Positions 49,007 through 53,047 of a stretch of DNA of 64,000 nt are shown piece after piece. The stretch is from assembly GCA_002261195.1 (NCBI GenBank), contig MVBO01000004.1:247746-311745 (forward strand), given 5' to 3'. The notes under the pieces were generated by a model. It searched no databases. It saw nothing but the letters and a program-made list of their open reading frames with translations, and had not been told where the DNA came from. Both the position numbers and the translations under genes were made by a program. Positions within the stretch are counted from its first letter, which is position 1. Each line of letters starts with the position of its first letter. Source of the DNA: Bifiguratus adelaidae (taxonomy: Eukaryota; Mucoromycota; Endogonomycetes; Endogonales).

Positions 49007-50103
49007 TTAACTGGACGATGCTTTGAGTTTATTGGCATGTTCTAGACACTGCTTAAGTAGCATGATGGCAGACTCTATTCCTTGCAAATGGCCTTTATCC
49101 GGACCTGAATATTCTGCATCTGTGAACCAATGTGAATGCGCAAAATCAATCATGCGTAGATCTGCGAGTTTTTGGCGATGTGGTTTAGGCATTGGGCTTT
49201 TCGGTGTATCACCTAGGTTCTTGTCCTCAATGGCGAGCGCAGACAGTTGGTCTTCTAATCCAACTGTCCCTGTTGCGCCCTCTGATTCCACGAGCTCTGT
49301 TTCTTCTTCGTCGTCGTCCTCTTCTTCCTCTGAGGGTTCGGCTTCATCCTCACTATTGTACTCCCCCCTTTGTCGCTTTTTCAGATAGTTCCATCCTCTA
49401 TTAAATGCTTCGGGATCGCCTTCATAGATGAGCAATAGACTAGATCCCCATAACCGCAGTCCGTCTTGGTCCTTCATCATGTCTTGTAGCTCCTCTAGAT
49501 CAGAGAGGAATTGCCGTATAATGAAGCGTTTTTGAGCGTGTGTGAGCGATGGCTGTGCTGATGCATCCATCTCGTCCAAGAGAAAGTAATTGAGAAAACC
49601 AGACGAGATGTTGTCTTGATTGAGCGCCTTGCCATAACTTTTAGAATATGTCTTGAAGGATTGTTCCGCCGGGTGATAGACGCTCATACCAGTGATGCGT
49701 GCGCCCATACTACCGCTCGTGGTCGTTTCCGCCGTGTTTTGCATCCTCGCTCGCTTTGCTTCCGTTGCGTCCACGTCGAACAATCGAATACCAAGCTTGA
49801 GGTCCATAATCGAAGGGCGATGAAACGGACAGAGTAGGTTCTCTAGACAGACGTAGAGTAAGACGAGTCAAGGACGTTAGCATGAAAGGAAGCATTCCAT
49901 TGTAAAAGGATATCATCTGCATATGATGCATCATTGTCTTGCGGCGTGAGCGTTCCATAGTAATCGGCTAGCCAATCCAGCACTTGCGGCCGTCGCTTCG
50001 CCTCTTCATAGAACCCCCTCTCCCGCGCATTCGTTGGCTTAACGACAATAGCCGAGGATTGCTGCCTCAAGCGTTGGTGTCCTGCCACTTGCACGATAGA
50101 CAT
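49007..50103 (-). CDS. IPK2: Inositol polyphosphate multikinase (IPMK/Ipk2/Arg82)
   Basis: Two exons (49914-50103, 49007-49857) give 346 aa. It starts MSIVQVAGHQ, matching the QVAGH start of the family, with IVVKP and a YYGTLTP segment. Catalytic motifs are complete: PSIMDLKLG (78-86, consensus PxxxDxKxG), GSSLLLIYEG (SSLL) and MIDFAHSHW (IDF). An acidic Glu/Asp-rich insert (EPSEEEEDDDEEETE) lies between the last two, as in yeast Arg82. The enzyme makes IP4 and IP5 from IP3 and acts in the nucleus. The exons are joined by a U12-type AT-AC intron (49858-49913); no GT-AG or GC-AG solution restores the frame. Confidence 0.9.
49858..49913 (-). other. U12-type (minor spliceosome) AT-AC intron in IPMK
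   Basis: On the minus strand the intron reads ATATCCTTTT at its 5' end (U12 consensus RTATCCTTT), has TCCTTGAC near its 3' end (U12 branch consensus TTCCTTRAC) and ends in TTAC about 10 nt after the branch A. It is 56 bp. Removal gives phase-1 joining that creates YADVYVCLENLLCPFHRP, matching the family's LENLL segment. Every other intron in the window fits U2-type ends. Confidence 0.88.
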
Positions 50104-50186: not shown

Positions 50187-53047
50187 ATGACGATCATGCA
50201 GCATGATATATACGTCAAGGGATACCAGGTCTACCTTGTGGAGCAATGGTAAGGCGAGCTGTGCGCGTTTGATAAGGCGCTCATGCATTCAGTAGGGTAT
50301 GCGAGCGCTCCAAGCCTTATAGCACGGTCAAGGTCTTCACAGGCGACGTCAATCATGAGGTAGGTTGATTTAGAAGACACTGGCTCCTGTCGTACTCAAC
50401 CACGTCTAGATACGATGCTGTGTCATTGAGATATCCGAGGAGGATCTTGCCAATCCAGAACTGGACGAGCTGTTTAGCGAGATTGACTCGGACACCAAGT
50501 CAAGACCCAAGATGGTAGCTATATAGCTTGCATTGTCCTTCAGCATCGCTCATTGAACTTTTGTAGACGGACATGGGAGTTATCCTTGTTACGGATCCAG
50601 CAAGCTTTTCATCTGACCTCGATATGGTCTTGATTTCGGATGGAGACTATCAAGCTCATATCCGGCAGTTTTGGGTAAACATTAACCTCAGGAGGATGCA
50701 TTGCGCTGGTAGGACATCGCTTAATCTGAATAAGCCCACGTAAGTACGCTACTTGTGTGCGGGCATTTGATTGACGTCGCTTGACATTATTGTAGCGATG
50801 CGCAAGAGGACAAATTTCAATCACTCTTTCTGGTATCGGACAATGTCCCCTTCAATGATGCGGTGCTTGAGATCGTCAAATTGGGACAGGCCAGTTTGTC
50901 TTTACTGGGCTATCTTCATCCTTCCTACGTCGATGGGTTGTACTGTGATGAGACCAAACTCGCGCTCGAGCGGTTCTTTGAGAGTTTGGACATGACTGAA
51001 CGGGTGGAAGTAGGCGTCGTAACTTTGCGTGTCGGTATCCTTACTAATATGACCTTTTCAAAGCTTCGTGAATCTTGGCTGGATCCACATGTGTTGGCTG
51101 TGCTGTTGAATCGAATCATGGATGCGCGTAACAAATTGCATTCCATTGGTATTCAAGTAGGTATTGCAACTCTACTCAGTGAGCACCTTCTCATCAGGTT
51201 GCAAAGGTCCCCAAAGATCCATTTCAAGACATGGCCATATTCCGAAAAGGCATCTCTCAAATTCAAAAACAGCACAAAATACATCCGCAAACGAAATGTT
51301 TGGACCCCATGACTTGGAGGCTGGTGAATAGCATCACGTTGCGAGAAGGCGCACCCACGCTCAAGGTGCACAAAGTGATCAAGAACAAGATTGAAGATTT
51401 CTCGGGCATGACCGCGCTACCGAGAGATTACGCTCAAGATGATCTGGAGGCGTTTGTTCAAATCGTACCTATTGATCGGCTTCGGACCTTGTGGAAAACT
51501 CGAGGATCTAAATTGTCTTCGCAACACGAAGGCGATCAGGATTGGCTACACGGCGGCAAGACATTATTACGTGGTGTGGCCGGCAAGACGGTAGGTTGGG
51601 CTTAGGTCTCGTGCAATCATTGACTCTAACCTCTTCCAGACCAAAACTGGTGGCGCGGCTGTAGGAATCTTTCGAAATGTTGCAGAGTAAGTCACCTTGG
51701 CATCGGTACAGCGTCGATCAATGGTTGACGCGCCTGCAGATCGTTATCCCGGAGATCCACGACCGATTTGAAGCAACGCCCGGATCGAAAACAAACGTAC
51801 CATCATGCACCAACCAATCAAACACCATCGCCCAACATGGTCGTCCCCTCCCTTGTCATATCTCCAACAGTGTCCTACGGATCCGATGTAGAGCAAACCG
51901 TCTCTGTGAGCCCAATGATGGATTCAAGCGATGCGCCAAGGTAAGGTAGCGCTGTCCGTAACCTCTTGCTTATGCGTACATCAGCGCTGGAGTGAAGCAC
52001 TTTCCCGCACAAAAGCCAACATTGAATGACCCCGAGGGACGCAAGCCCAGACGGCGACCCTCTCCCATTGATACCTCAAGTCTGTGTCATTGAACGTTGC
52101 TATCGATCTGATGTTGACTTATATCTTATAGTGTTATCGCCTCCCATTGTGGCATCGCCCAAAGATTCCGCACCCACGACACCAATGGAAATGCTTCCTC
52201 CCATCCACCTTCCCGATCTGACACCTGAGCAAACCAGTCGCCACACAAGTGTATCTCCAAGTCTCGATCAACCTCCAAGCATACAACCTTCGCTAAGGCG
52301 TCAATCCTTGGACGTGACTGCACCCTCAACACCAATTGCAGAAAACTCTGTAAACTTGGCGACTCCGAAAAAGGCTCCCTTGGAGCGAGCATATTCCACG
52401 AGTGATTTGGCGCATATGAATATGGATATGCCAGTTATCGAGATGGATGTGCAAAAGTACATTGTTTACGAACGATTGCGCCATCAGGAAGCTGCTCTCA
52501 AGAAAACTCTGGAACGGATCACCGCGTTGGATCAATGTTATGGCGATCAAGCCGCCGCTATGGTGGCCATGTACAACACAAGGCATGATCGATTTCAGGT
52601 GAGCAACCTTGCACCGGCGGTGAAAATATCTGTACTCAACCTCTTTGTAGGAACTGGATAAGAAGGCGCGTTCTGTATTAGAGCAACAGACGAAATCACA
52701 CACTACGATCAAGGATTTGGAACTGCGAGGAGCCAAGCTTCAGTATGAGCTGGCTATCCTCAGCGACAAGCTGAAAGATATCGAACAGTTCGTGAATGAC
52801 TTTGCCACGAAGGTATGTCTATCTTTTCAATCGATTGTTCATTGCAATCTCTCACACCTGGTCTTCACAGGTCCGATACTTGCAGCTCAAGATGCCAGAG
52901 TCCAAAAAGTCCATGCATACCATGCTTATCGTCGGCAATTACTTTAGTTATTATTGGCTCAAGATGCGTAATTGGATGTCCTGGCTGACTCCAAAGTCAG
53001 CGGAACAGAAGCTGGACCAAGAGCCAAAAAACGGTCATCAGGAATGA
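50187..53047 (+). CDS. Stb6/Stb2-like (Sin3-binding) fungal protein
   Basis: Twelve exons close in phase to 768 aa: 50187-50248, 50296-50359, 50410-50514, 50567-50739, 50796-51156, 51198-51590, 51640-51686, 51740-51940, 51985-52079, 52132-52598, 52651-52812, 52871-53047. It starts MTIMQHDIYVKGYQVYLVEQW and continues VCERSKPYSTVKVFTGD, a pattern I associate with the Stb6 N-terminal region of fungal proteins. The first ~450 residues look globular; a Ser/Pro/Thr-rich linker follows (SPTVSYGSDVEQTVSVSP); the end is a coiled coil (YERLRHQEAALKKTLERI) and possibly membrane-proximal helix (VGNYFSYYWLKMRNWMSW). The donor after 52079 (GTCTGT) is weak. Family call is from memory of the pattern, not certain. 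Divergent from IPMK by 83 bp. Confidence 0.55.

Follow-up and report, generated by a model that had tools for sequence, protein, structure and literature searches.

A probable U12-type AT-AC intron in the inositol polyphosphate multikinase gene of Bifiguratus adelaidae, a fungus with candidate minor-spliceosome components

The gene encoding inositol polyphosphate multikinase (IPMK) in Bifiguratus adelaidae, a fungus placed by the NCBI taxonomy in the Mucoromycota, Mucoromycotina, Endogonomycetes and Endogonales, is interrupted by a 56-bp segment that, judging from genomic sequence, is almost certainly a true AT-AC intron that is excised by the minor spliceosome, the machinery built on U11/U12 and U4atac/U6atac. 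In the proposed mechanism, U11 and then U6atac would pair with the 5' splice site ATATCCTTTT, an order of events presumed from the known minor spliceosome, while U12 would pair with the branch-point sequence TCCTTGAC, leaving the branch purine bulged. The AC located 10 nt past the branch A would then serve as the 3' splice site, yielding an IPMK frame of 346 residues, and the intron as a whole would be one member of a small genome-wide set with common signals. Presumably the RNA is spliced in this way and unspliced transcripts yield no working kinase; the structure of the gene thus suggests that the kinase would depend upon minor splicing.

The intron and its splice signals

Positions given here are those of the window, by which we mean the whole stretch of DNA analyzed (64,000 nucleotides; contig MVBO01000004.1, positions 247,746 to 311,745); a glutamate synthase encoded in it matches a B. 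adelaidae protein with 100% identity. The initial annotation had proposed a 56-bp AT-AC segment of phase 1 at 49858..49913, and the signals, the frame join, and a comparison with shuffled sequence all bear this out. The segment lies on the minus strand, where the reverse complement of 49858-49913 reads ATATCCTTTTACAATGGAATGCTTCCTTTCATGCTAACGTCCTTGACTCGTCTTAC, opening with ATATCCTTTT and closing with TCCTTGACTCGTCTTAC. The 5' splice site (49904..49913, minus strand, read from 49913 to 49904) agrees with the minor-class rule ATATCCTT, and duplex prediction pairs it with two snRNAs from this same genome, namely U11, at its 5' end, and U6atac. Near the 3' end, the branch-point sequence (49867..49874, minus strand) agrees with the minor-class rule TCCTTRAC and is predicted to pair, with one bulged base, with the U12 of this genome. 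The intron ends in AC (3' splice site, 49858..49859, minus strand), with 10 nt between the branch A and the last base, and its removal restores the coding frame.

At the junction, exon 1 ends in GAT G and exon 2 begins with TC TAC, such that the intron falls in phase 1 (G|TC). The frame break originally described between YADD and LENLL is real, with one correction of wording: splicing creates a GTC codon at the junction, and the protein sequence there becomes YADV-YVCLENLL. When the exon 1 frame is read unspliced, a stop codon is reached 23 codons past the 5' splice site. Across the whole window, the pattern ATATCCTT-N20..50-TCCTTRAY-N5..17-AC occurs in a single place, the IPMK intron (two overlapping matches with a common 5' end), and it occurred in none of 100 shuffled versions of the window.

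Other frame-keeping joins of the two exons were enumerated for introns of at least 25 bp, allowing the donor to lie anywhere from -60 to +50 nt of the called site and the acceptor to lie as much as 100 nt past its called position. Within this range, major-class GT-AG splicing offers two joins only (35 and 80 bp), both of which remove CLENLL wholly, partly or with sequence beyond it, and each of the ten GC-AG joins likewise loses CLENLL in part, in whole or beyond. The earlier claim that no usable GT-AG or GC-AG intron exists here holds, in that every frame-keeping join of either kind that was enumerated cuts CLENLL. Many AT-AC joins keep a frame, and an ATATCC start is found only at the called donor. 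Two other acceptors were considered for that donor: one lies 9 nt upstream of the called acceptor and would place the end of the intron within the branch sequence itself, and the other lies 24 nt downstream and would remove CLENLL.

The IPMK gene and its product

The exon carrying the N-terminal motifs (49914..50103, minus strand; MSIVQVAGH...KP...FYEE...YYGTLTPQDNDASYAD plus the G) was defined by translation and by alignment of its motifs with 16 relatives, while the second exon extends to the stop codon (49007..49857, minus strand; VYVCLENLL...PSIMDLKLG...SSLLLIYEGD...MIDFAHS) and lies within a 286-residue open frame that matches the Pfam IPK domain at 6.1e-47. Removal of the intron unites QVAGH, KP, FY, and YYGTL with CLENLL, PSIMDLKLG, and SSLLLIYEGD in a single reading frame of 346 residues, with the junction at residue 64. 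Placement of the start codon is uncertain, and an extra upstream exon is possible.

When compared with the PDB, the joined protein matches 5w2g over query residues 43-214, a stretch spanning the junction, as well as 2iew over residues 62-249, and its best five PDB matches are all named IPMK. Protein-database searching, with candidates restricted to 0.55-1.75 times the query length, returned 27 relatives at E ≤0.001, 19 of which carry a fungal name. Given the IPK domain, the PxxxDxKxG and SSLL motifs, and the IPMK best matches, all present in the joined protein, the gene is identified by its sequence as an inositol polyphosphate multikinase. Alignment with 16 relatives reveals invariant residues in exon 1 (K22 P23, E28, F31 Y32, G50, L52) and in exon 2 (N70, D82, K84, G86, and more). 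The junction itself falls in a variable stretch of IPMK, and homology therefore brackets the junction without fixing its exact base.

Two observations concern the surroundings of this junction and of the gene. The Rhizophagus IPMK model (P0009) contains two additional residues, located approximately one residue downstream of the junction, that have no counterpart in any of the 16 remaining aligned sequences, and perhaps reflect a mis-modelled intron there. At 50240-51500 of the window, on the plus strand and divergent from IPMK, inspection by eye indicates the start of a gene that we take to resemble SPT16 (FACT complex), apparently with short GT-AG introns.

Components of a minor spliceosome

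The initial annotation had called for a search for minor snRNAs, and a search of the assembly (18,628,366 bases in 286 contigs) located three of them above the Rfam cut-off and a candidate for the remaining one below it. Specifically, one match each was obtained for U11 (68.7 bits versus a cut-off of 39), U12 (53.6 versus 53), and U6atac (35.6 versus 33), while the single U4atac candidate, at 45.7 bits, lies below the gathering score of 53. None of the four models matched any of 14 control genomes. The alignments display AAAGGAGAGA in U6atac, GAGUAAGGA in U12, AAAAGGG close to the 5' end of U11, and AAUUUUUG as an Sm-type stretch in both U11 and U4atac. Predicted duplexes with the IPMK 5' splice site reach -6.9 kcal/mol for U11 and -5.9 kcal/mol for U6atac, and that between U12 and the branch site, with its bulge, reaches -10.7 kcal/mol; cofolding the first 75 nt of U4atac with U6atac predicts a long helix.

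Among the minor-spliceosome proteins named by the initial annotation, a 48K-type CHHC finger was found (31.3 bits versus a cut-off of 21.1), the identity of which is uncertain, since the family also matched one of the 14 control genomes (Sulfolobus acidocaldarius) and the PDB matches of the finger are GTSF1-type proteins. Beyond the named proteins, genome profile searches detected PDCD7/59K (42.3 bits versus 27) and the ubiquitin domain of the SNRNP25 type, or 25K (45.7 bits versus 22.8). The best PDB matches of these two are U11 snRNP subunits in entry 8r7n, namely Programmed cell death protein 7 and the U11/U12 25 kDa protein, respectively. Taken together, candidates for all four snRNAs along with 59K and 25K, in an early-diverging fungus, support the original contention that this organism retains a minor spliceosome. 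The 59K/PDCD7-like C-terminal block occupies positions 1501-1650 of locus L040 (contig C35) within a 227-residue open frame, which seems to read through short introns, such that the gene model needs rebuilding.

Similar introns elsewhere in the genome

Searching the genome with RTATCCTT-N20..50-TCCTTRAY returned 14 matches as opposed to one for the reversed pattern, and relaxed or longer patterns gave 28 versus 4, 32 versus 5, and 8 versus 0, these searches overlapping such that the relaxed and longer forms partly repeat the 14 matches. To be counted as supported by Pfam, a spliced piece, in some cases trimmed, had to exceed the curated cut-off with a match spanning the junction. Of the 17 AT-type pieces, 6 did so, all from a first batch of 10 and none from a second batch of 7, and each of the six contains an AT-AC intron: a PIGB-like Glyco_transf_22 gene (L005), an LSM12_LSM gene (L008; 30.1 versus a cut-off of 29.5), ELP4 (L009; PAXNEB), an importin-type gene (L013; IBN_N), a STX6_10_61_N gene (L060), and a FANCD2-like gene (L030; FancD2). 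When ELP4 is compared with a relative that is 61% identical, the alignment is free of gaps around the junction and gaps appear only later. At L060 a closer AC is present, and the Pfam match uses the farther one. The FANCD2-like intron (C218:158281-158336) lies on the window's own contig, outside the window, and has a weaker branch site, TGTCTTAAC.

Of the four other pieces in the first batch, one, L003, which we read as PPME1 (an alpha/beta hydrolase), has an Abhydrolase_6 match just below the cut-off and downstream of the junction, two gave weak matches, and one gave none. Nine introns were tabulated (IPMK, L005, L008, L009, L013, L060, L030, L003, and L029), all of which start with ATATCCTTTT, end in AC, measure 53-84 bp, and have their branch A at a distance of 10-18 nt from the 3' terminus, a uniformity that is partly by construction since the introns were chosen for such features. 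Five loci with ATATCCTTTT and minor-type branch sites (L004, L007, L015, L022, and L029) could be assigned no firm host gene: weak Pfam matches under the cut-off were obtained for L022 and L029 and no match for L004, L007, and L015, while the frames of L015 and L022 are open when unspliced. The remaining A-type rows were rejected on account of an open unspliced frame, the lack of an AC in range, or an unconvincing join, and L020 and L033 start from 5' sites already represented by L003 and L013.

AT-AC and GT-AG subtypes

An automatic frame-join test was applied to both subtypes. Twenty-four of the 42 A-type rows were closed when unspliced, and among these an AC join was found in 13, including L055, which is located inside the L013 intron, as compared with 8 for the wrong acceptor, AG. 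Four rows that passed this test (L010, L035, L051, and L063) were nonetheless not accepted, and the FANCD2-like L030 failed it. For the G-type, represented by 17 unique rows that omit one match on contig C271, 11 were closed, of which 3 had an AG join and 4 a join to the wrong acceptor, AC, and there is therefore no excess for GT-type minor introns. Because the frame-join test is weak, the Pfam test was used instead. Pfam was run on spliced pieces from 9 of the 17 G-type rows, none of which gave an above-cut-off match across the junction, and the other 8 have no AG join within range. One G-type candidate, L014 (MFS_1), was discarded as its domain fits better unspliced (57.8 versus 49.6 bits).

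Comparing 6 of 17 AT-type with 0 of 9 GT-type pieces by a one-sided hypergeometric calculation, done by hand, gives approximately 0.05. A similar calculation setting the seven accepted introns with RTATCCTT and TCCTTRAY (IPMK, L003, L005, L008, L009, L013, and L060) against the 8:10 ratio of AT-AC to GT-AG introns reported for Phycomyces gives approximately 0.013, and is less favorable with the 8:8 count that the same source also offers. A Fisher test of 10:0 against 8:10 (p 0.0039) was set aside; it had counted all ten ATATCCTTT matches, among them L010 and three loci with no firm host gene (L004, L007, and L015).

These data invite a tentative reading, which we consider somewhat more apt to be wrong than right: B. 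adelaidae would maintain a functional minor spliceosome that serves perhaps ten to twenty introns, entirely or nearly entirely of the AT-AC subtype. Minor introns of the GT-AG subtype would have disappeared or become major-class introns, leaving those that the major spliceosome cannot take over. We hold it no more firmly because perfect-motif searches may be biased toward the AT-AC subtype, because few loci are involved, and because the census drew on unannotated genomic sequence.

Weighing other explanations

Two other accounts of the IPMK segment have to be weighed. In the first, the major spliceosome would remove the segment as one of the rare AT-AC introns of U2 type. AT-AC introns are not the sole province of the minor spliceosome, as human introns of the major class are reported to include 85 that are AT-AC or of related subtypes (PMC8280824). 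We judge this very improbable, given that the 5' and branch sites are fully minor-class, that pairing of these sites with U11, U6atac, and U12 of this genome is predicted, and that introns with the same signals are present in other conserved genes.

Less probable still, if only slightly, is the absence of any intron, with an assembly indel or a pseudogene producing the break and the signals arising by chance. A frame break by itself can be an assembly error, and no Bifiguratus appears among the names shown for the 27 length-restricted database relatives, some rows of which are nameless. Against this stand the absence of the signal set from all 100 shuffles, the presence at the break of 56 bp carrying all three signals, the open and conserved flanks on both sides, and the presence of snRNAs and similar introns in the genome. 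Removal of a genuine AT-AC intron by the minor spliceosome thus remains by far the preferred account of the IPMK segment.

Relation to known systems and significance

Phycomyces blakesleeanus and Rhizopus oryzae belong to the Mucoromycota. In the portions of their study dealing with U12-type introns, Bartschat and Samuelsson (PMC2846911) count, by the 5' rule, 8 AT-AC and 10 GT-AG introns in Phycomyces with one method and 8 of each with another. These two fungi resemble B. adelaidae in broad lineage, in the RTATCCTT 5' rule, in minor snRNAs, and in having few introns of this class, whereas Phycomyces has both AT-AC and GT-AG minor introns and the supported ones of B. adelaidae are AT-AC only; IPMK is not named in those portions (PMC2846911). 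Rhizophagus irregularis and Basidiobolus meristosporus are likewise early-diverging fungi with minor introns, 205 and 249 respectively, sets far larger than that of B. adelaidae, and for Rhizophagus the complete set of four minor snRNAs is reported along with many of the specific proteins (Larue and Roy, PMC10639083). The main text of that paper mentions neither Bifiguratus nor Mucoromycota. Minor introns of early-diverging fungi (Rhizopus, Phycomyces, Rhizophagus, and Basidiobolus) are already known from published work, and the B. adelaidae IPMK intron is an addition to them. In the literature searched, which covered main texts and few subscription papers, none of the papers listed deals with minor splicing in Bifiguratus, and none treats minor introns together with IPMK.

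The share of AT-AC introns among minor introns is approximately 26% in human and 77% in Blastocystis (196 of 253), as given in the main text of PMC10639083. Blastocystis resembles B. adelaidae in its short minor introns and in the dominance of AT-AC, and differs in having hundreds of introns with a mean below 42 bp, as opposed to a small set with nine tabulated at 53-84 bp (PMC10639083). A nearly-all-AT-AC set would be unusual, and one devoid of GT-AG introns would be more extreme than these. In human cells, CENATAC is reported to favor AT-type minor introns (PMC8280824), and its presence in B. adelaidae therefore matters; the CENATAC profile (PF14968) found no match in the assembly, and likewise none in any control genome, a lack of match that does not equate to absence.

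The IPMK intron adds a minor-intron gene, along with core minor-spliceosome parts, in a compact 18.6-Mb Endogonales genome. Should the set truly be AT-AC only, it would provide a simple natural setting in which to ask why minor spliceosomes have persisted, whether a lineage with AT-AC introns is locked by them into retaining the machinery, and whether AT-AC splicing can proceed without CENATAC. In practice, AT-AC introns may account for missing or broken gene models.
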